Shown one piece after another: positions 10,903 to 60,451 of a stretch of DNA of 64,000 nt (positions within the stretch are counted from its first letter, which is position 1; every line of letters begins with the position of its first letter). Position numbers and translations under genes: made by a program. The stretch comes from Thiorhodovibrio frisius (GTDB lineage: Bacteria > Pseudomonadota > Gammaproteobacteria > Chromatiales > Chromatiaceae), in the NCBI RefSeq assembly GCF_033954835.1, contig NZ_CP121471.1, forward strand, positions 4,954,501 through 5,018,500. Reading direction: 5' to 3'. The notes under the pieces were generated by a model. It was not told where the DNA came from. It did not search any database and saw only the letters and a list, made by a program, of their open reading frames with translations.

Positions 10903-11832
10903 TCAGGAAAATGCGTCACTATCGAGCGCCAACGGCGCCGGCCCACTGGCCCCGCCAAGCTCGACCAGCATCTGCGCATCGGCCGGCAGCACATCAACCT
11001 CGGCGCGCGATGCAATGAGTTGGTCGGTTTCCATCACATCCAGCACGGCGGCCAGCACGTCCGGATCTTTCTGGCGCAGATCGTTGAGTGCGGCACCCAC
11101 CACCGCCGGGCGGGTGGCGGCCGCTTCGGCCATTTTCTGCGAGACCTTGTAAGCCGTCTGGCTCTTAATCAGGCCGACGCGGTTCTCGCCGTCTTGTTTC
11201 ATGGCGCTGGTCACCTGGACTAGGCGCTTGACCACTTTCTCCGTGATATTGTCCACCATCTGACGGTCGGTGAAGGCGACCTTGCGGATATAGACCGAAC
11301 CCAGCTTGTAACCCCATTTTTCCGATAGCGGGGAGACGGTCGCGCGCACTTTTCGGCTAAGCTGATGGCGGTCCTCAAGCATTTTGTCCATTTCCAGATT
11401 GGACAGGGTCGAGATGGTCGAACTGGCGACATTGGCCTGGAGCGAGCCCTCGGGGTTGGCGTTGACGAATAGATAGGAGACCGGATTGCTGACCTGCATC
11501 TCGTACCAAATACCCACACCCATGGGCGTGCCTTCCTCGGAATTGACCATCTGATCGCGCAGGTAATACTGCTTAAGCGCGGTGCTAACCAGATAACGCT
11601 TGCCAAAAAAGGGCAGCAACAACGCTTTGAGTCCAAAGTGGCTGACGGGAAAGCGCAGGCCGGCATCGTCCAGAGTGCCGATGACCTTGCCAAACAGGGT
11701 GAAGACTTGCGCCTCGCGTTCCTGCACGACGGCATAAAGCCCCAGGGAGCGCGACAGGCCGAGTACCAGCGGAATAAAGAACAGGCCGAAGAAAAACGCG
11801 ATGGCCGCGCCGTAACCTTGATCGATGAACAT
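10903..11832 (-). CDS. SPFH/band-7 domain membrane protein (second of pair)
   Basis: A 309-residue stomatin-type protein with an N-terminal membrane helix (about 8-32), an SPFH domain (about 35-210: VVQEREAQVFTLFGK near its start) and a C-terminal helical segment with Ala/Glu-rich coiled coil (about 205-245). SPFH proteins form membrane-associated rings or scaffolds that influence proteases, lipids or transporters; this one cannot be assigned a partner. It follows the other SPFH gene after 14 bp, as hflK/hflC do, but its sequence and neighbourhood do not look like HflKC. Confidence 0.85.
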   Translation of the reverse strand: MFIDQGYGAAIAFFFGLFFIPLVLGLSRSLGLYAVVQEREAQVFTLFGKVIGTLDDAGLRFPVSHFGLKALLLPFFGKRYLVSTALKQYYLRDQMVNSEEGTPMGVGIWYEMQVSNPVSYLFVNANPEGSLQANVASSTISTLSNLEMDKMLEDRHQLSRKVRATVSPLSEKWGYKLGSVYIRKVAFTDRQMVDNITEKVVKRLVQVTSAMKQDGENRVGLIKSQTAYKVSQKMAEAAATRPAVVGAALNDLRQKDPDVLAAVLDVMETDQLIASRAEVDVLPADAQMLVELGGASGPAPLALDSDAFS

Positions 11833-11846
11833 GACAGTGTCCTCCT

Positions 11847-12839
11847 TCAGCGACTCGGGGCGGTGACTTGGACAATGCGCCGCGCCTGTTTCAGCAGCGG
11901 AATGCGCATGTTCCGCAGATAGGCACGCAGAGACTCGGGACCGCCGGTCGCCTTGATTTTGATCAGCGTCTCGCCCAACTCGCGCAGTGGCGCCACCTCA
12001 GCCTGAGCATTGTTGCTGGCAATCTCTACTGCGCGTTTGCTCATTGTGATCTGCTGCTCGGCATCAGCACGTGCGGTACTGATGTCCGCAGCCACCTGGT
12101 TGCGGGTGGAGTTAATGGCCGACAGCGCGCGGTCGACTTCGGTCGGCGGGTCAATCTGGGTGATCAGGGCCGCGTCCAGTTCAATGCCATAGCGGGTGCC
12201 GGTAGAACGGCATTGCTGCTCCATGTAGTCGTTCAGCAGCGGCAGGTTTTTGCGCAAATCGTTAATCGATACCCCTTCGGACAAATCGACTGCCGGACCA
12301 CCACCCTCCTCGCCTTGCATTTCGCTCTGGCCCACCAGACTCTGGCCTTTGGGGTCAACAAAATTGGCGATGCGCTCGCGCAGTACCGAGACGAAGTAGC
12401 CCATCACATGCTCAAGCGGGCTGTCGATGCCAAACAGGTAGGCGTAAAGATTGGTTTCGGAGGCACGAAAGCGAATCTGGCCATTCACGCCCGTAGTCAG
12501 ATTATCTTTAGTGACTGCCTCAATGGTGGATTGGCGCTTAGTTGGATCCCAGGTCACATCCAGTGCCTGAGTCGCGACGTCGACCTTGTGCACTTCCTGC
12601 CAGGGCCATTTGAAGTAAGGCCCACCGGGGCCGATGGTATGCAGCACCGGGAATTGATAGCGTTTCTTTTCCTCTTCGTTCAAACTGTCATCGGTGACCA
12701 TAGCGTCGCCGATCCGTTGGGCGCGACCAAAAGACGTCAGCACCGCACGCTCGTTCGGCTTGACGGTATAGAGCGCGCGGGCAAACACACGAAAGCCCAT
12801 ATAAACGAGCACTCCAAAAATAAAGGCGGTAATAGCCAT
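11847..12839 (-). CDS. SPFH/band-7 domain membrane protein (first of pair)
   Basis: From the ATG at 12839 (GGAG nine bases upstream) this is a 330-residue protein with an N-terminal membrane helix (about 2-18), then TVKPNERAVLTSFGR, the usual entry into an SPFH domain, and a C-terminal coiled coil rich in Ala/Gln/Glu (about 235-285, STRNQVAADISTARADAEQQ). The open frame extends 30 codons further upstream, without family similarity. It shares an operon with the SPFH gene at 10903-11832, and the two probably form a hetero-oligomer. Confidence 0.85.
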   Translation of the reverse strand: MAITAFIFGVLVYMGFRVFARALYTVKPNERAVLTSFGRAQRIGDAMVTDDSLNEEEKKRYQFPVLHTIGPGGPYFKWPWQEVHKVDVATQALDVTWDPTKRQSTIEAVTKDNLTTGVNGQIRFRASETNLYAYLFGIDSPLEHVMGYFVSVLRERIANFVDPKGQSLVGQSEMQGEEGGGPAVDLSEGVSINDLRKNLPLLNDYMEQQCRSTGTRYGIELDAALITQIDPPTEVDRALSAINSTRNQVAADISTARADAEQQITMSKRAVEIASNNAQAEVAPLRELGETLIKIKATGGPESLRAYLRNMRIPLLKQARRIVQVTAPSR

Positions 12840-13015
12840 AGAGGGGATCTCCAGCAGGTGGATGGGCGAGCGGCTGCTCGAAAATCGAGCAGGCTGTCCC
12901 AAGCATAGCCCCTTAAAACTCGCTGGCAAGCGCTAAGGTGAGTAATGCCGAGTCTAGGCCACCAAACTGAGCAAGAGCGCAATCAATGACCAGCGAAATC
13001 AATGCCGCAAGGGAT

Positions 13016-13804
13016 TCAGATCGCGCGCAGCTCGAAATGCGCGAAAGGCATCGCGTCCGGGATGGCAAGCTGGGTGGGCAGACGCTCGCGCAGTTCGGCT
13101 TCAAGCAGGGAATGCGGGCGACATTGTTGCAGGGCGTAGCGTGAGACGCCAACTGCCGCGAGTTCTTGCATCAGGTGCTCAAGATAGGCGGGGGAGTCGA
13201 GCCCTGGCAAGGGGGTCGTGCGGACTTCGAGCGCGATGCCGGATTCCACTGCCAGTGCGAGACTGTCCCAGGCATTTTCACCCGAGCCGGGTACGCCCGT
13301 GACCAGCGAATAGTCACTAGGCAGGGCCTTGATATCCAGCCCGACCCAGTCAACCAGCGGCAGAACCTCAGCGAGGCGCCGGGGATAAGGCCCACCGGTG
13401 TGCAGGCCAATTTTATAGCCGAGTTCGCGCAACTCGGCAATGGCGGCAGGCAGTGCCGACTGGGCTGTGGGCTCGCCACCGCTGAAAACGACTGCATCGA
13501 GCAGGCCACGGCGCCGGACGAGAAACTCCCGCGCCTCCGACCAGTCGAGCGCCGGCTCATCTGCAGCATCCACCAGATGGGCATTGTGACAGTAGGCACA
13601 GCGCCAGGGGCAGCCCTGGCAAAAGAGGGTCGCTGCCAACTCGCCGGGATAGTCGGCGGTAGTCATTGGAGTCAGGCCACCAAGGCGCAGGGCTTGGGCA
13701 GCGGCGGCCTTTGAAACCGCGCCCCGAGGCTGAAACGATGGCCTTTGCACCGGATTCGGCACATGCATCGGAGTGGTTTCAGCGGCTTGAACGGCGAAGG
13801 TCAT
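13016..13804 (-). CDS. nrdG: Anaerobic ribonucleotide reductase activating protein (radical SAM)
   Basis: Generates the glycyl radical on the class III ribonucleotide reductase using S-adenosylmethionine and a [4Fe-4S] cluster. The cluster motif is CPWRCAYC (about 65-72), followed by the SAM-binding VFSGGEPTAQ (about 107-116). At 262 residues it is longer than E. coli NrdG and resembles the NrdG2-type subfamily. A GGAG five bases before the ATG supports the start. It is the last gene of the group nrdD, glycyl-radical module, nrdG, separated from the small module by about 90 bp. Confidence 0.92.
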   Translation of the reverse strand: MTFAVQAAETTPMHVPNPVQRPSFQPRGAVSKAAAAQALRLGGLTPMTTADYPGELAATLFCQGCPWRCAYCHNAHLVDAADEPALDWSEAREFLVRRRGLLDAVVFSGGEPTAQSALPAAIAELRELGYKIGLHTGGPYPRRLAEVLPLVDWVGLDIKALPSDYSLVTGVPGSGENAWDSLALAVESGIALEVRTTPLPGLDSPAYLEHLMQELAAVGVSRYALQQCRPHSLLEAELRERLPTQLAIPDAMPFAHFELRAI

Positions 13805-13895
13805 GGTGGCTCCGGATACGGCAATGAGCCCAATTCTGCACCCAGCAATGAACTGCGGCTGCGCACAGAAAAGAATGCTCGGTACAGGCAGGTCT

Positions 13896-14138
13896 TCAGG
13901 CAGCTTCGAGCTGGCGGATTTGCTCGACTGGACGCTCAGTGGCGCGCCGGGTTGTGCATTGGCTCCGACGCTGCTCGCAACCCTGGGGCTGCTCGCTGAA
14001 CATCAGCCTGTCGCGATGCTCTGATTGTTTCCCTGCGTTGAAGGCCGAAACCGGACGATGGTAGCCCATGACCCGGGTCCAAACCTCGCAGGGGGTTCTT
14101 TCTTCGTCGCGGAGTTCGATGGTGTCGTCAGTCAGCAT
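13896..14138 (-). CDS. Separate glycyl-radical module of class III ribonucleotide reductase
   Basis: An 80-residue protein whose residues 16-50 (CEVWTRVMGYHRPVSAFN, then GKQSEHRDRLMF) match the extreme C-terminus of NrdD-type reductases, including the RVxGY glycyl-radical loop; the predicted radical residue is the Gly in RVMGY (about 25). The large NrdD protein encoded 178 bp upstream ends before this segment. The rest of the small protein (51-80) is basic and not recognised. The start has GGAG seven bases upstream, so it is translated on its own. It presumably binds the large subunit and is activated by NrdG. Confidence 0.8.
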   Translation of the reverse strand: MLTDDTIELRDEERTPCEVWTRVMGYHRPVSAFNAGKQSEHRDRLMFSEQPQGCEQRRSQCTTRRATERPVEQIRQLEAA

Positions 14139-14159
14139 GAGTTTTCTCCGATCGGTAAA

Positions 14160-14175
14160 GGCGAATTAATTCGCC
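14160..14175. repeat. Perfect palindrome GGCGAATTAATTCGCC
   Basis: A perfect 16-bp palindrome 22 bp upstream of the small glycyl-radical gene, in the gap separating it from nrdD. The same GGCGAAT and ATTCGCC arms with a different central dinucleotide recur at 14300-14315 and 60427-60442, and decayed versions lie at 14241-14254 and 14270-14284. Function unknown. Confidence 0.7.
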
Positions 14176-14298
14176 TAATAATTTAGTCACTTAGCGCAGG
14201 ATTTCTGAAAAATATTTTTCTGCTTAACTATCTGAACAAGCACATAAATTCGCCAGCTCTTTTTGAACGGGAGAATAAATTTGCAGCCTGTTTTCAAT

Positions 14299-14316
14299 GG
14301 GCGAATAAATTCGCCC
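14299..14316. repeat. Palindrome directly after the nrdD stop codon
   Basis: GGGCGAATAAATTCGCCC has eight-base arms and an AA centre, and ends on the base next to the nrdD stop. It is one of the GGCGAAT-N2-ATTCGCC family. It could form a small 3'-end hairpin in the nrdD message, but no T-run follows. Confidence 0.7.
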
Positions 14317-16395
14317 TTAGGAATTCGCGGCCATTGCCGGGTCGCCGCCAGTAACGGCCAGTTCGGCGGACTGAGCCTCGGCGCGCTTGCGGGCGATGAG
14401 TTCCTGATCGCACTTGGGGCAGAACTTGTGCTCGCCAGCGATGTAGCCGTGATGCGGACAAATAGAGAACACCGGCGTCACCGTGATGTAAGGGAGGCGG
14501 AAGTTCTCAAGTGCTCGGCGTACCAGGCGCTTACAGGCCTCGGTCGAGCTGATCTTCTCGCTCATGTAAAGATGCAGCACGGTGCCGCCGGTGTATTTCG
14601 ACTGGAGCGCTTCCTGCAGGGCCAAAGCCTCGAAGGGATCATCGGTAAAACCGGCTGGAAGCTGGGATGAGTTGGTGTAGTAGGGGGTTTCCTCGCTGCC
14701 GGCCTGGAGGATGTCCGGGTAGCGCTTTTTGTCCTCGCGCGCAAAGCGATAAGTGGTGCCCTCGGCCGGCGTGGCCTCCAGGTTGTACATGTGGCCGGTT
14801 TCTTCCTGGAAAGCCACCATGCGCGCACGCACATGATCGAGAAACTCACTGGCGAAGGCACGACCCCATTCGGTGCTGACATCCTCGGCATCATCGGTAA
14901 AGTTGCGAATCATCTCATTTAAGCCATTGACGCCAATGGTCGAGAAATGATTGCGCAGGGTGCCAAGGTAGCGTTTGGTGTAAGGAAAGAGTCCGGCGTC
15001 TAGGTGGCGCTGAATCACCTTGCGCTTCAACTCCAGGCTCTTGCGCGCCAGATTCAGCAGGCGGTCAAGCGCAGCAAAGAGTTCTTTCTCGCGTCCCCGG
15101 TTCAGATAGCCAAGGCGCGCGCAGTTGATAGTCACCACACCCAGGGAGCCCGTCTGCTCGGCCGAGCCAAAGAGCCCGTTGCCGCGCTTGAGCAACTCGC
15201 GCAGGTCGAGCTGCAGCCGGCAGCACATAGAGCGGACCATGTTCGGCGTCAACTCTGAGTTAATAAAGTTTTGAAAGTAGGGCAAGCCGTACTTGGCTGT
15301 CATTTCAAACAGCCGTTCGGCATTCTCGCTCTCCCAGGGAAAATCCGGCGTAATGTTGTAGGTCGGAATGGGGAAGGTGAAAATCCGCCCTTTGGCATCG
15401 CCTGCGGTCATCACCTCAATGTAGGCGCGGTTGATCATGTCCATCTCGTCTTGCAGTTCACCATAGGTGAAAGACTGCTCGACGCCGCCGACCAGGGGGA
15501 CTTGGTCGCGCAAATCCTCGGGGCAAACCCAGTCGAAGGTCAGGTTAGTGAAGGGCGTCTGGGTGCCCCAGCGCGAGGGGACATTGAGGTTATAGATGAG
15601 TTCCTGGATATACTGGCGCACGTGGGTGTAATCGAGCTGATCTACGCGCACGAAGGGCGCCAGATAGGTGTCGAAGCTCGAAAATGCCTGGGCACCGGCC
15701 CATTCGTTTTGCAAGGTGCCGAGAAAATTGACGATCTGCCCGATGGCCGAGGACAGATGCTTGGGCGCGCCGGCCTCGACCCGACCGGGAACGCCGTTTA
15801 AGCCCTCGTTCAACAGAGTGCGCAGCGACCAACCGGCGCAGTAGCCCGAAAGCATGTCAAGATCATGAATGTGATAATCGCCCTCACGATGCGCCTCGCC
15901 AATTTCAGGCGTATAGACGTGACTCAGCCAGTAGTTGGCGATCATCTTGCCTGAGGTGTTGAGGATGAGCCCGCCGAGGGAGTAGCCCTGATTGGCATTG
16001 GCCGAGACGCGCCAGTCGGAGCGATCAAGATACTCATTGATGGAGCCGGCGACATCCACCAGGGTGCGCTGGTCGTGGCGTAGCTTGCGGTGCTGCTCCC
16101 GATAGACGATATAGGAGCGCGCAGTCTCAAAATGATTGGCGCTAATCAGCGTCTGCTCGACCACATCCTGGATGTCTTCGATATCCGGGATGCGTCCACT
16201 ATCAAAGCGATGCGCCAGCACCTTGACCACCTGCGCGGTCAGCAGGCCGGCTTCGAGTTCGTCGAATTCGCCACTCGCGCGTCCGGCGCTCAGGATGGCT
16301 GCCTCAATGCGTGCGGCGGCGAATGGCACTTCCTCCCCGTCGCGCTTGCGAACGCGCCGCGGTAGGCTGGCGAGGCTGGAGTGAGCGTGGGACAT
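14317..16395 (-). CDS. nrdD: Anaerobic ribonucleoside-triphosphate reductase, catalytic body
   Basis: Reduces ribonucleotides to deoxyribonucleotides without oxygen. The 692-residue protein has an N-terminal ATP-cone (about 10-100, PRRVRKRDGEEVPFAAARIE), the ten-stranded barrel body, active-site cysteines in SMCCRLQLD, and a C-terminal zinc-type segment CPHHGYIAGEHKFCPKC. It stops about 25 residues later, without the RVxGY glycyl-radical loop that fused NrdD proteins carry there; that loop is encoded separately at 13896-14138. The frame stays open to 16473, but the extension would run through the promoter and NrdR boxes, so the ATG at 16395 is chosen even though its ribosome binding site is weak. 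Confidence 0.93.
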   Translation of the reverse strand: MSHAHSSLASLPRRVRKRDGEEVPFAAARIEAAILSAGRASGEFDELEAGLLTAQVVKVLAHRFDSGRIPDIEDIQDVVEQTLISANHFETARSYIVYREQHRKLRHDQRTLVDVAGSINEYLDRSDWRVSANANQGYSLGGLILNTSGKMIANYWLSHVYTPEIGEAHREGDYHIHDLDMLSGYCAGWSLRTLLNEGLNGVPGRVEAGAPKHLSSAIGQIVNFLGTLQNEWAGAQAFSSFDTYLAPFVRVDQLDYTHVRQYIQELIYNLNVPSRWGTQTPFTNLTFDWVCPEDLRDQVPLVGGVEQSFTYGELQDEMDMINRAYIEVMTAGDAKGRIFTFPIPTYNITPDFPWESENAERLFEMTAKYGLPYFQNFINSELTPNMVRSMCCRLQLDLRELLKRGNGLFGSAEQTGSLGVVTINCARLGYLNRGREKELFAALDRLLNLARKSLELKRKVIQRHLDAGLFPYTKRYLGTLRNHFSTIGVNGLNEMIRNFTDDAEDVSTEWGRAFASEFLDHVRARMVAFQEETGHMYNLEATPAEGTTYRFAREDKKRYPDILQAGSEETPYYTNSSQLPAGFTDDPFEALALQEALQSKYTGGTVLHLYMSEKISSTEACKRLVRRALENFRLPYITVTPVFSICPHHGYIAGEHKFCPKCDQELIARKRAEAQSAELAVTGGDPAMAANS

Positions 16396-16417
16396 GGGAG
16401 GGCTTCGGGGGATAACG

Positions 16418-16433
16418 ACACAAGATATTGTGG
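16418..16433. promoter_or_regulatory. NrdR box, downstream copy
   Basis: ACACAAGATATTGTGG matches the NrdR operator pattern acaCwAtATaTwGtgt. It starts 31 bp (three helical turns) from the second copy, the spacing usual for tandem NrdR boxes, and lies just upstream of the nrdD start. NrdR should repress nrdD when dATP is plentiful. Confidence 0.8.
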
Positions 16434-16438
16434 TAAAG

Positions 16439-16444
16439 ATTATA
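16439..16444 (-). promoter_or_regulatory. Candidate -10 box of nrdD
   Basis: Minus strand reads TATAAT, between the two NrdR boxes, which would let NrdR block polymerase. Seventeen bases upstream the -35 position reads TATTCA, a poor match, as expected for an activator-dependent promoter with the FNR-like site about 59 bp upstream of the expected start. Confidence 0.55.
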
Positions 16445-16448
16445 GAAG

Positions 16449-16464
16449 ACACTAGATATTGTGA
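16449..16464. promoter_or_regulatory. NrdR box, upstream copy
   Basis: ACACTAGATATTGTGA is the second NrdR-type operator, in phase with the copy at 16418-16433 and covering the region just upstream of the TATAAT box. Confidence 0.8.
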
Positions 16465-16484
16465 ATATCCCATTTTGCATAAAA

Positions 16485-16498
16485 CTGACCTGGATCAA
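16485..16498. promoter_or_regulatory. FNR/ANR-type binding site
   Basis: CTGACCTGGATCAA fits the oxygen-regulator consensus TTGAT-N4-ATCAA with substitutions at positions 1 and 5 only. It lies 90 bp before the nrdD start, near the -60 activator position relative to the candidate -10. This suggests that anaerobiosis activates the anaerobic reductase. Confidence 0.6.
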
Positions 16499-16676
16499 TT
16501 AATGCCTCCGGAAAACTTCCTCTCCCGTCGCCTCGCTCAGCGCGCGCAACCCTCGAGAGCCTGATTGACAACCTCAATCGTGCCTACGAACTGGCCGGAG
16601 ACTCGCTCTGGCCGCAACCCAATACCGGAATTTTGTTGCGCCGGACAACACGCACGCTCGACCTGAGCATCTGCTG

Positions 16677-16868
16677 ATGCCGGACTGGACCCAGGAGCTA
16701 CTGGAGCGCGAGCGCGTGCTGACCGAGATTTTGAATCTGGCCGAACATCTTGGCGTGAGCTTTGCTTTCCCGACCCAAACCCTCGAGCTGGACCGCTGGC
16801 CAGCGACTGGCGAACCGTCCCTGTCCACCATGCCGCCGCAAGAGGACCTGGCGTCGCCAGCCAGCTAA
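16677..16868 (+). pseudogene. Remnant of an MscS-type mechanosensitive channel C-terminus
   Basis: The frame reads LLERERVLTEILNLAEHLGVSFAFPTQTLEL, which has the pattern of the C-terminal tail of MscS-family channels (ILxLAExLGVxFAFPTxTLxL). Nothing of the membrane helices or beta domain is present upstream, where the DNA instead holds the nrdD regulatory region. The adjacent part (about 16538-16676) is readable in another frame and ends in a stop. This is best read as the eroded end of a deleted gene. Family assignment is from memory of the motif. Confidence 0.5.
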
Positions 16869-16918
16869 GCTGGCGGGGCGGCCAGTCTCTTGCGCTTGCC
16901 GAGCTTTGCACGAAGATT

Positions 16919-18034
16919 TCAGTCGCTCGCCGCCTCGACATAGCGCAACGGCACCCGGCGCGACAGGCCGGTCAGGAGTTCGTAGCTGATGGTGCCGCTG
17001 GCCGCAGCCACGGCATTGGCACTGACCTGAGTACCCCAAAGCTCGACTGGATCGCCGGGTTGAGCCTGCGGCTGCTCGCTCAGGTCAACCATCAGCATGT
17101 CCATGGAGACGCGCCCAATCAAGCGTGTGAGCTGCCCATTCACGGCCACCGGCGTGCCATCGGGCGCATGACGCGGGTAGCCGTCAGCATAGCCGGTGGC
17201 CACCACCCCGACACGGGTCGGGCGCTCGCAGACAAAGCGCCCGCCATAACCAATGGCCTCGCCGGCAGCGAGTTCCCGCACCGCCGTCAGCTCGGAAACG
17301 AAGCACAGGGCTGGGCGCAGCAAGGCGGCATGCGGGTGAGGATGGTCAAGCGGATCGAGCCCGTAGAGCATAATGCCCGGGCGCACCCACTCGGCATGCG
17401 TATCTGGCCGGGTCAGGATGGCGGCGGAATTGGCCAGACTGCGCGCGACTTCTCTGGTAGCCGGTCTGACAGTCGGGATGGAACCCGCAAGGGTCGCAAA
17501 ATCTGCCAACTGACGATCCGTCGGCCCCGGATCGGCCTCATCGGCGCGGGCGAAATGCGTCATCAGCACCAGCTCGCCAACATGGGGACAGGCGGCTAGC
17601 CTGGCATAGGCCGCGCGACCGTCCTCGGGTGTCAGTCCGAGGCGGTGCATGCCGGTGTCGATCTTCAACCAGACGCTAAGCGGCTGTTGCGGACGCGCAC
17701 CCAGCACCCAGTCGAGCTGGCGCGCGTCATGCACCACAGTCATCAGCCCCACCTGATCCACCAGTTCCAGCTCCGCAGTCTCAAAGGGGCCTTCAAGCAA
17801 CAAAATTGGCGTGTGAATGCCAGACTCGCGCAGTTCCAGCGCCTCTTCAACACAGGCCACGCCAAAGGCCGCAGCCTCAGCGACTAAGGCGCGAGCAACC
17901 GCCACGGCGCCATGCCCGTAGGCATTGGCCTTAATGACCGCCAGCGCCCGTGCACCGCCGGCGCAGGCCCGGGCGAGACGATAATTGTGCTGAATCGCCG
18001 CGAGATCGACGCAGGCTTGGAGCGGACGTGACAT
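16919..18034 (-). CDS. alr: Alanine racemase
   Basis: PLP enzyme converting L-alanine to D-alanine for peptidoglycan. The N-terminal barrel carries the PLP lysine in VIKANAYGHG (about 34-43). The C-terminal domain contains the catalytic tyrosine region GYGGRF (about 255) and the substrate-site segment RVSMDMLMVDL (about 305). Length 371 is normal. The gene stands alone between the MscS remnant and a tRNA gene. Confidence 0.95.
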   Translation of the reverse strand: MSRPLQACVDLAAIQHNYRLARACAGGARALAVIKANAYGHGAVAVARALVAEAAAFGVACVEEALELRESGIHTPILLLEGPFETAELELVDQVGLMTVVHDARQLDWVLGARPQQPLSVWLKIDTGMHRLGLTPEDGRAAYARLAACPHVGELVLMTHFARADEADPGPTDRQLADFATLAGSIPTVRPATREVARSLANSAAILTRPDTHAEWVRPGIMLYGLDPLDHPHPHAALLRPALCFVSELTAVRELAAGEAIGYGGRFVCERPTRVGVVATGYADGYPRHAPDGTPVAVNGQLTRLIGRVSMDMLMVDLSEQPQAQPGDPVELWGTQVSANAVAAASGTISYELLTGLSRRVPLRYVEAASD

Positions 18035-18367
18035 ACAGCCTGATAACAGAAGTCAAGTGCTGATGGAACGCGAACCCGGTCTAGCAGCGGCCGTGTTTGG
18101 CTTTACTGCGAATCACATGGATTCATTTTCCGGATGGTCGGGACTGTGAACGGAAGGATGAGGTGAGTAAGGATGGAATCAGCAAGTGCCTGGCAAACCA
18201 GCTTTTTTAGATGGCGCTCCCTAGGGGATTCGAACCCCTGTTACCGACGTGAGAGGCCAGCGTCCTAACCGCTAGACGAAGGGAGCGGGACGAGCGATGA
18301 AGAGTCGCGTATTATACGGGATTCGTCCTTAGGCTCAAGCTGATGACAAAGATTCATCGCTCGCCGG
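18035..18367. other. Intergenic region around the tRNA gene
   Basis: These 333 bp between alr (minus) and pcnB (plus) hold the tRNA-Glu gene at 18212-18286. A small CTGG-CAAA-CCAG hairpin followed by C and six T (about 18191-18209, plus strand) resembles a weak plus-strand terminator, although nothing on plus obviously needs one. Nothing else is supported. Confidence 0.4.
18212..18286 (-). tRNA. tRNA-Glu (anticodon CUC)
   Basis: Seventy-five bases including an encoded CCA fold as a tRNA: acceptor GCTCCCT with GGGAGC, a D-arm with TAGCGGTTAGGA, an anticodon loop CCTCTCA (anticodon CTC) and a T-arm containing GGTTCGAATCC. The body resembles E. coli tRNA-Glu, which has UUC; this is therefore a second isoacceptor reading GAG. 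Confidence 0.93.
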
Positions 18368-19867
18368 ATGTTGCCCGCCAGACGTTTCTGGCCGGACGTT
18401 TCCCGCAGGGCAAGGCGCGAGCCCTTCATGTGCGCTCATCCAGGCATCGCTTTACAGAGCCACTTTATTCGTAGACAGGCGTTTTCACATATTGGGGTAT
18501 TTTTAGTTTCCTTGTCTTCCTTGACCGAACCCACACCAAGCATTGTGCCTCGTCCGGAGCACAGCATTTCGCGCGCCAATATCAGCGCGAATGCGGTCAG
18601 GGTGCTCAATCGCTTGAAGCAGAGCGGCTATCAGGCTTATCTGGTCGGCGGCGGTGTGCGCGACTTGTTGCTTGGCCACGAGCCGAAGGATTTTGACGTT
18701 GCCACGGACGCGCGGCCCGAGGATGTGCGGCGGGTGTTTCGCAACTGCCGGCTGATCGGGCGACGGTTTCGCTTGGCGCATGTGTTCTTTGGTGCTGAGA
18801 TCGTCGAGGTCGCAACATTCCGGGCGGCAAATGTCGATCTTGGTGACGAGGATGCGCGCCAAATCGAAAACGGCATGATCCTACGCGACAATGTATTTGG
18901 CTCTATCGCCGAGGATGCCTTGCGACGAGATTTCACCGTCAATGCGCTCTACTACAACATCGCGGATTTCTCGCTCGTCGATTATGTCGAGGGACTTGCC
19001 GACATTGCCGCCGGGAGGCTGCGGCTGATCGGCGATGACCCGATCGCCCGCTATCGCGAAGACCCGGTGCGCATGCTGCGCGCGGTGCGCTTTGCCTGCA
19101 AGCTGGGTTTTGTGATCGAACCGCGCTGCGAGACGCCCTTGGTCGAGCTGGCACCTTTGTTGCGCGATGTTCCGCCAGCGCGGCTGTTTGAAGAGATTCT
19201 CAAATTGTTCCAGGCCGGCTTCGCCCTGCCGGCGTTCGAGAAGCTGCGCCATTATGGGCTGTTTGCCGAGCTCTTCCCTGAGACCGAAGACTGCCTCGCA
19301 ATGCAGGAGGAGGATTTCCCCATCACGTTCGTGAACCGGGGGCTGGACAACACCGACCGCCGCGTTCAGGAAGGCAAGCCTATAGCGCCCTTTTTTCTGT
19401 TTGCGGTGCTCTTGTGGGAGCCAGTACGCCGTCAGTACTTACAATTGCTTGAGGCTGGCCATGGCTGGTCGGAGGCCATGACCACTGCCTCGAGTATGAT
19501 CGCCGGGCGTCAGCAGGCGTATGTGGCCATCCCCAAGCGATTTGGCTTGCCGATGCGCGAGATCTGGGCTTTGCAGCCGGCGCTCGAACGCCGTCGGGGC
19601 AAGCGGCCCTTGGCCTTAATTGGGCATCCGCGCTTCCGCGCCGCCTATGATTTTCTGCTGCTGCGGGCTGAGTCCGGCGAGGTCGACCCGGAGCTGGCTG
19701 CCTGGTGGACGCAGTTCCAGGAGGTCAACCCATCAGAGCGCGCGGCCATGGCAACGGAGCGCAAGCCCAGCCGCAAGAGCCGGCGCAGACGTCGACGCAA
19801 GGCACCAGCCGAGAAGACCGATCAGCCGGCGACCGATCCCTCCGGTCAAACAGCACCTCCGGCCTAA
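18368..19867 (+). CDS. pcnB: Poly(A) polymerase
   Basis: Adds A tails to RNA 3' ends and so promotes RNA decay. The nucleotidyltransferase head shows LVGGGVRDLLLG and KDFDVATDA with its catalytic aspartates (about 95-115), then RRFRLAHV and the RRDFTVNALYY helix. A Lys/Arg-rich tail near the C-terminus (about 465-485) is typical of PcnB and separates it from CCA-adding enzymes. The first 50 residues are not conserved; the true start may be an internal ATG at 18428 or a TTG near 18512. pcnB is followed by panB and panC; the folK gene often found between them in other bacteria is absent here. Confidence 0.92.
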   Translation: MLPARRFWPDVSRRARREPFMCAHPGIALQSHFIRRQAFSHIGVFLVSLSSLTEPTPSIVPRPEHSISRANISANAVRVLNRLKQSGYQAYLVGGGVRDLLLGHEPKDFDVATDARPEDVRRVFRNCRLIGRRFRLAHVFFGAEIVEVATFRAANVDLGDEDARQIENGMILRDNVFGSIAEDALRRDFTVNALYYNIADFSLVDYVEGLADIAAGRLRLIGDDPIARYREDPVRMLRAVRFACKLGFVIEPRCETPLVELAPLLRDVPPARLFEEILKLFQAGFALPAFEKLRHYGLFAELFPETEDCLAMQEEDFPITFVNRGLDNTDRRVQEGKPIAPFFLFAVLLWEPVRRQYLQLLEAGHGWSEAMTTASSMIAGRQQAYVAIPKRFGLPMREIWALQPALERRRGKRPLALIGHPRFRAAYDFLLLRAESGEVDPELAAWWTQFQEVNPSERAAMATERKPSRKSRRRRRRKAPAEKTDQPATDPSGQTAPPA

Positions 19868-60417: not shown

Positions 60418-60451
60418 GCCGGCTTTGGCGAATCCATTCGCCGCTGCCGGC
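60418..60451. terminator. Nested hairpin between pseB and ppsA
   Basis: Core GGCGAAT-CC-ATTCGCC (60427-60442) is flanked by three unpaired bases and outer GCCGGC arms on both sides. It is nine bases from the ppsA stop and about 40 from the pseB stop, between convergent genes, so it probably ends both transcripts. The core is the same palindrome found near nrdD. Confidence 0.5.

Follow-up and report, generated by a model that had tools for sequence, protein, structure and literature searches.

A probable two-polypeptide class III ribonucleotide reductase in Thiorhodovibrio frisius, with the glycyl-radical loop encoded by a separate small gene

The nrdD locus of Thiorhodovibrio frisius

Can an anaerobic ribonucleotide reductase (RNR) of class III work when the loop that bears its glycyl radical is not part of the catalytic chain? 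This question is raised by the nrdD locus in a 64,000-nucleotide stretch of the Thiorhodovibrio frisius genome (the window), whose minus strand carries, in order, an NrdD catalytic body, a spacer of 178 bp, an open reading frame (ORF) of 80 residues and an activase of 262 residues (Table 1). The original prediction, made from the DNA alone, had held that the body has no RVxGY loop, that this loop lies in the small downstream gene and that nrdG follows it, and all of this was confirmed: the C-terminus of the body reads ...SICPHHGYIAGEHKFCPKCDQELIARKRAEAQSAELAVTGGDPAMAANS*, no RVxGY loop occurs in its translation, CEVWTRVMGYHRPVSAFNAGK is contained in the 80-residue ORF, and the third protein exceeds the cut-off of TIGR02495 (188 bits), as expected of the radical S-adenosylmethionine activase of a class III RNR. 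The length of the gap and the small gene's own GGAG and ATG (GGAG-AAAACTC-ATG, with the GGAG seven bases before the ATG) were exactly as predicted; only the distance from the CPKC motif to the end of the body had to be corrected, from about 25 to 30 residues. An alternative upstream start would make the body ORF 718 residues long. As 178 is no multiple of three, the body and the small ORF lie in different frames, and stop-codon readthrough therefore cannot join them in the window.

The domain matches are those of one enzyme cut in two. Along the 562 positions of the NRDD family PF13597 the body covers 2-529 and the small ORF 532-562, the division falling between the zinc motif, which stays with the body, and the radical loop; the small ORF scores 34.0 bits against a cut-off of 26.2. 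The body exceeds the cut-offs of PF13597 (576.9 bits), TIGR02487 (460 bits) and NF006126 (1141 bits), is matched by the ATP-cone PF03477, and has in its sequence the MCCR double-cysteine finger loop (finger-loop motif classes of class III RNRs are described in passages of PMC9669993). The RVxGY loop expected of a class III RNR is found in the small ORF and not in the body, and loop and barrel are not on one chain. A loop on the same chain is usual and no chemical requirement, and we regard the locus as a two-chain variant of class III RNR. An alignment of 14 sequences of the small-protein family has 21 invariant columns, and the protein consists of the loop, a conserved lead-in with the consensus ELxDEERTRCE and a variable tail. 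PF13597 was the sole Pfam match of the window protein at E up to 1, with no glycyl-radical family of the pyruvate formate-lyase (PFL) type among the matches, and a phmmer search of this protein against the PDB gave no match.

A fused nrdD elsewhere in the genome had been named beforehand as the observation that would speak against the split. The genome is a single contig of 5.42 Mb (98.25% complete), and a PF13597 search of the whole of it found no second or fused nrdD, the only two matches being the body and the small ORF of this locus. The other RNR large subunit of the genome is one PF02867 protein (class I/II type) in a frame of 1027 residues.

Table 1. Coordinates of features at and around the split nrdD locus, in window positions
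Feature	Position	Strand	Description
NrdD catalytic body	14317-16395	-	692 residues; ATP-cone, NRDD domain, MCCR finger loop and C-terminal CPxH...CPKC motif; without glycyl-radical loop
Separate glycyl-radical subunit (predicted)	13896-14138	-	80 residues; loop CEVWTRVMGYHRPV; predicted radical glycine G25
nrdG-type radical SAM activase	13016-13804	-	262 residues; TIGR02495 (NrdG2)
Spacer between body and radical subunit	14139-14316	-	178 bp; two GGCGAATNNATTCGCC palindromes, 14160-14175 and 14300-14315
Two ACACNAGATATTGTG boxes upstream of body	16418-16432, 16449-16463	+	pattern matches
Transfer RNA (tRNA) gene	18215-18286	-	Rfam scan

Upstream of nrdD we also noted that the two ACACNAGATATTGTG boxes are near-identical and 31 bp apart, with 2 matches in the window against 0.00 expected. 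These are presumably NrdR operator boxes.

Distribution of the split

The original prediction had left undecided whether the split is recurrent or local. A search for small proteins beside NrdD in relatives answers this question: it recurs well beyond Chromatiaceae (loci and genomes are referred to below by our L and G numbers). PF13597 was matched in 133 of 194 Chromatiaceae genomes, and among the body rows listed those that reach the domain end stop at profile positions 528-539, with four exceptions. Among these rows only G024 and G143 cover profile 2-562 in an uninterrupted frame; in G035 and G079 the match extends to 562 across a single stop. A small-protein profile built from the 14 sequences matched 63 of 106 Chromatiaceae genomes, and 61 of the 63 matches start at profile position 1-9 in open frames of 63-615 residues, which are too short for a fused enzyme; the remaining two are a fused protein (G024) and a fragment (G092). 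In a phylum-wide sample 12 of 299 genomes exceeded the NF006126 cut-off, 10 of them with the split (T. frisius included) and 2 fused (G220, G307), and in the genus of G339 NRDD was matched in 14 of 25 genomes, as two matches in 13 and as one match broken by TGA in G501. When named genomes were scanned with this small-protein profile, at least 578 relatives were found, and the 80 that were kept belong to alpha-, beta- and gammaproteobacteria as well as to metagenome-assembled genomes of Omnitrophota and Verrucomicrobia. The split is plasmid-borne in Cupriavidus necator H16, Aquabacterium, Bradyrhizobium and Sulfuricurvum.

The sets of fetched loci are enriched for splits, the small protein having often been the query, and the counts that follow are to be read with this in mind. 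The 120 small-protein matches, a few of whose loci are counted twice, comprise 3 fused, 111 with a body on the same strand and 6 without a body. Among the 148 loci with a body 124 are split, 22 are fused (17 of these with an NrdD of the E. coli type) and 2 are without a loop (L027, at a contig end, and L136). An NrdG-like ORF occurs in 123 of the 124 split loci, the exception being L073.

Two further arrangements were observed in these genomes. On plasmid pS11L-3 of Bradyrhizobium japonicum (L041) the split NrdD body is itself divided, with a transposase gene of the IS3-type ISRj2 between its two pieces, and the small nrdD and the activase lie downstream. Many Chromatiaceae nrdD genes (for example, in G073, G138 and G188) show two NRDD matches broken at profile 156/158 and about 930 nt apart within one frame of about 1000 residues, an intein-like arrangement.

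Evolution and selection

A maximum-likelihood tree of 133 NrdD bodies was built by a quick method, with support from the Shimodaira-Hasegawa-like approximate likelihood ratio test (SH-aLRT), leaving out 12 of the 17 E. coli-type fused rows and 3 exact duplicates. The fused L003, L004 and L042 nest within the split clade, and the starred branches force 5 label changes. The fused L132 and L135 and the E. coli type branch outside this clade, where a long-branch warning makes the outer placements unsure. We read this as one old fission followed by three re-fusions. The fused L004 keeps a lead-in of the split type, IALKDEERTRCE, between its zinc motif and its loop, as expected if two genes fused. 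The small gene gave a ratio of nonsynonymous to synonymous substitution rates (dN/dS) of 0.12-0.22 against its 8 nearest rows (37 codons; two rows are apparently one genome), by which it appears to be under purifying selection.

Evidence for a working two-chain enzyme

The proposal that body and small protein form one reductase is supported as the best explanation of several observations: the split in most relatives tested, the NrdG-like ORF, the selection on the small gene, the re-fusions, the single nrdD of the genome and the case of C. necator. We put the probability that the locus is a working class III RNR of two polypeptides at roughly 0.88. On plasmid pHG1 of C. necator H16 the body, a small nrdD and the activase occur in the same order, RefSeq giving the name nrdD to the 66-residue gene, and according to a passage of PMC2864759 that cites Siedow 1999, NrdDG is essential for complete denitrification in this strain (eutrophus H16). 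The same passage gives Rmet_5137 and Rmet_5139 for NrdDG of C. metallidurans, with one locus number left out between them, and the split is present in C. metallidurans (L040). The P. aeruginosa NrdD PA1920 is tabulated at 76 kDa in an excerpt of PMC12284477, which would be the size expected of the body alone. We consider it very likely that the split enzyme is active. The literature searched, which included few subscription papers and in which Siedow 1999 and Wei 2014 were not contained, gave no description of a split NrdD or of phage radical subunits and no statement on where the radical of the split enzyme sits.

Certain points weigh against this reading. Production of the small protein, its binding to the body and its role as carrier of the radical are read from sequence, and its final 30 residues or so are not conserved in the 14-sequence alignment. 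An AlphaFold model of the natural re-fusion L004 has a predicted local distance difference test (pLDDT) score below 50 at residues 698-732, the radical loop included, and docking is unsupported by this model. The H16 deletion cited in PMC2864759 may have covered the small gene or spared it.

In the mechanism that we propose, the large protein would supply the ATP-cone, the barrel, the active-site cysteines and the zinc motif, and the small protein the radical loop. NrdG would install the radical on the glycine of the small protein, and the loop would then enter the barrel beside the finger-loop cysteines and start catalysis, like the covalent tail of an ordinary NrdD. The physical complex, the activation by NrdG and the exchange after damage are steps that we infer. 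Oxygen cleaves glycyl-radical proteins at the radical glycine, and for this reason a separate loop would allow a damaged piece of about 9 kDa to be renewed while the body of about 77 kDa is kept (both sizes are estimates from chain length). The reading of the small protein as an exchangeable subunit is supported indirectly, by its stand-alone copies in prophages, plasmids and viruses.

Stand-alone radical subunits in cells and viruses

These copies bear on a further question, namely what a free radical subunit is for. It may be mainly a repair device, of which cells, and especially phages, keep extras to restart an oxygen-cut host NrdD, like the GrcA/YfiD spare part. We find this reasonably likely and favour it for the phage copies; for the copy in the operon of the window, repair would be an added advantage and not the whole function. 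In six loci the small gene occurs while body and NrdG are both missing from the locus, and a whole-genome search of 5 of these 6 genomes found one body each and 1 to 5 small copies. Thiocystis minor, where a single body is accompanied by five small copies (four lie in related repeated elements), speaks for repair, as do the two extra copies of the complete genome G027 (L281, L282), which lie beside tape-measure and head genes of a prophage. Plasmid copies occur in Allochromatium vinosum and A. tepidum, and in G517 the single small copy is on a different contig from the body. More than one small copy was found in only 3 of the 63 matching Chromatiaceae genomes, and extra copies are thus not the rule. 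In Magnetospirillum fulvum (L279:4610-8223) we noted a stand-alone subunit directly upstream of nrdA-nrdB, besides a normal split nrdD elsewhere.

A scan of uncultivated viral contigs with the split-type profile gave 127 relatives, and the 80 kept comprise 65 distinct proteins. Body (E < 1e-5) and NrdG (E < 1e-4) are absent from all 80 loci, and in the whole records of 50 of them the C-terminal piece alone was found in every case and a class I/II large subunit in none. All 80 proteins have the radical glycine, though the search patterns omitted that position, and the glycine is invariant in an alignment (A2) of 55 of the 65 distinct proteins; the presence of the EVWTRVM and YHRP letters is uninformative, since the patterns required them in part. 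PF13597 is the only Pfam match of the A2 proteins at E up to 0.01 and is matched by all 55. All 55, together with the small protein of the window, also match phrog_4132 ('unknown function'), and 16 match an NrdD-like PHROG. In 11 of the 80 viral subunits (L205, L217, L218, L241, L247, L259, L261, L262, L267, L268 and L270) there are three or more cysteines ahead of the loop, in a stretch, typically PCAH...C..GR..P.DC..CAAY, that is possibly a second kind of metal module.

A second viral scan, mostly of fused-type loops, gave 513 relatives, and the 80 kept consist of 63 stand-alone copies, 1 separate copy near a body (L321) and 16 fused enzymes, 6 of these with NrdG. Whole-record search of 50 of the 63 again found the C-terminal piece only, in 50 of 50. 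Thirty of the stand-alone proteins were chosen for a CxDC/CxEC stretch and 28 of them aligned (A4), leaving out L295, a copy of L292, and L310, which is without the second cysteine pair. Two CxxC pairs and the radical glycine are invariant in A4, the whole zinc-plus-loop domain being encoded as a free protein. The 'nrdD' of the ANMV-1 virus (L287:2686-3120) consists of a 144-residue zinc-plus-radical-loop domain only; the ANMV-1 paper, in the passage concerned (PMC4372165), took this gene as an oxygen-sensitive ribonucleotide reductase. A single-sequence viral scan with the ANMV-1 protein gave no relative. PDB searches with A4 and A2 gave weak matches to the NrdD loop of Thermotoga maritima (E 0.0072 and 0.068, respectively). 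An AlphaFold model of a viral zinc-plus-loop protein has a mean pLDDT of 85, with blocks of 55-82 across the loop half. It had no fold match in the PDB at E <= 0.001, and its VIA-align Z scores did not exceed 2.8, in listings that do not contain class III RNR chains.

The absence of body and NrdG from the locus (80 of 80 in the first set, 63 of 80 in the second), the C-terminal piece as the only part in all 100 whole records searched, the lack of a class I/II large subunit in the first 50 and the retained radical glycine all argue for repair, and YfiD and phage T4 Y06I provide a proven precedent for PFL, as given in passages of PMC8683613. Against it stand the nature of the viral records, which are fragments without completeness estimates or linked hosts, and the result that among 50,697 cultured-phage records the small protein of the window had no match better than E 0.08. 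In a sample of the viral loci, phage-hallmark PHROGs (head, tail, terminase, replication, lysis or integrase) were found near L200, L201, L204, L207, L212, L219, L226, L240 and L263, and the same kinds near L289, L301, L304, L340 and L366. The neighbour proteins tested for L193, L230, L234, L293 and L320 gave no PHROG match, which also counts against repair by phages, and those of L290 matched only PHROGs of unknown function.

The viral queries matched, in cultured phages, only ANMV-1, MT835493 and the class III large subunit of an Oceanotoga phage. MT835493 was considered as a stand-alone copy and rejected, as it is a fused NrdD of 802 residues. On a human-gut scaffold ('Bacteriophage sp.', L286:2033-5353) we noted a fused NrdD that is extended at its C-terminus by a glutaredoxin-like part and is followed closely by an ORF resembling thioredoxin reductase, these domains being named by eye.

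On balance we think that viruses of anaerobes commonly encode no more of the class III RNR than its radical-bearing C-terminal piece, as a bare loop or as a loop with a CxxC...CxxC zinc module, by which they would replace the oxygen-labile part of the host NrdD and keep the synthesis of deoxynucleoside triphosphates (dNTPs) running. With similar, limited confidence we take such viruses to bring no catalytic body, activase or class I/II large subunit, and the simplest form to have been enabled by the split host enzyme. The strategy may be likened to that of psbA in cyanophages. The stand-alone phage proteins could instead be inhibitors or decoys that occupy the barrel of the host NrdD or sequester NrdG, so that the host or a rival phage runs short of dNTPs. 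They carry the loop that would be recognised by NrdG, and a decoy would be expected to bind the same partners. We consider this improbable, since a decoy could do without the radical glycine and yet all 55 aligned proteins have it, without its having been demanded by the search, and since some of the viral contigs carry thymidylate synthase or dUTPase, that is, functions of dNTP supply.

Unlikely alternatives: one polypeptide or decay

Returning to the two-chain enzyme, body and small protein might yet be joined into one polypeptide by frameshift, readthrough or splicing. In 28 of the 33 same-frame loci there is one stop codon between the two, mostly TGA (for example, L129, L103 and L008), which gives 28 of the 124 split loci with a single in-frame stop, and the rows of G035, G079 and G501 are similar. 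However, only 33 of the 124 split loci have the two ORFs in one frame (the other two relative frames account for 52 and 39 loci); this is about the third expected by chance and argues against a readthrough system. In the window the small ORF is in another frame and has its own start and Shine-Dalgarno sequence, and among the relatives the distance from the body stop to the small-protein match varies from overlap up to 434 nt. An Rfam scan of 11000-19000 gave only the tRNA and, at the same place, one match below threshold, with no described intron or riboswitch in the gap. A single product is accordingly very unlikely, although some readthrough may occur in the loci with a single in-frame stop.

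The GGCGAAT palindromes that had been noted in the gap are real (2 sites). The GGCGAATNNATTCGCC palindrome has 23 sites across the genome, some in short tandem series, one of them at 60427-60442 of the window, and looks like a dispersed repeat that is incidental to the split. Two genomes of the same genus, G028 and G076, are split although their gaps hold no intact palindrome (that of G076 has one half-site), so the palindromes are not needed for the split. That the split is a recent lesion by these repeats, leaving the locus dead or silent, is scarcely credible despite their position in the gap, given the same-genus splits without them, the occurrence of the split in several phyla, the signs of purifying selection and the status of this gene as the sole NrdD of the genome.

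Implications

The locus offers a natural case of an essential enzyme whose glycyl-radical cofactor would be detachable, so that radical installation, docking, oxygen cleavage and replacement could be studied separately. The 127 and 513 viral stretches, which may overlap between the two scans and include 16 fused enzymes among the 80 kept from the second set, are candidates for spare parts beyond PFL, a question left by the passages of PMC8683613, and a testable function can be offered for phrog_4132. Where the small gene went unnoticed, constructs and deletions of nrdDG in Pseudomonadota may not be complete.

Comparison with known systems

The single-chain NrdD proteins of T4, T. maritima and E. 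coli share with the T. frisius system the ATP-cone, the NRDD domain, the MCCR-type finger loop, the zinc motif, the RVxGY loop and the NrdG partner, and differ from it in that the radical loop of T. frisius is a separate gene product. The viral small-protein profile aligns, weakly (E 0.068), inside such a single chain (4coi_A, residues 617-645). The NrdJa/NrdJb pair of Pseudomonas aeruginosa likewise has an RNR function spread over two genes; it is of class II, B12-dependent and without a glycyl radical. Among interrupted phage genes nrdD is the commonest split RNR gene (6 cases) according to passages of PMC3653736, and these resemble our system in having nrdD in several coding pieces; the pieces described there result from introns, inteins and fragmentation of full genes, and those passages contain no stand-alone radical subunit. 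The NrdD/small NrdD/NrdG set of C. necator H16 pHG1 has the same gene order and differs by sequence divergence only; in the printed passages found it appears only as nrdDG.

A functional analogy is to GrcA/YfiD and phage T4 Y06I, small free-standing proteins, one of them phage-encoded, that carry a glycyl-radical loop. As described in passages of PMC8683613, YfiD of E. coli and Y06I of T4 restore oxygen-cleaved PFL; spare parts are validated there only for PFL and may exist for other glycyl radical enzymes, with the speculation that some of the 2142 annotated GrcA sequences serve such enzymes. GrcA serves PFL, whose tail stays intact until it is cut by oxygen, whereas the bacterial split body never has a tail. 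The small protein of the window is also set apart from GrcA by sequence family, its match being to PF13597 only, and it is by analogy that the two may work alike. The 55 aligned viral stand-alone proteins and the small protein of the window match the family phrog_4132, which is annotated as of unknown function and for which we propose the role of a radical-bearing subunit of NrdD.

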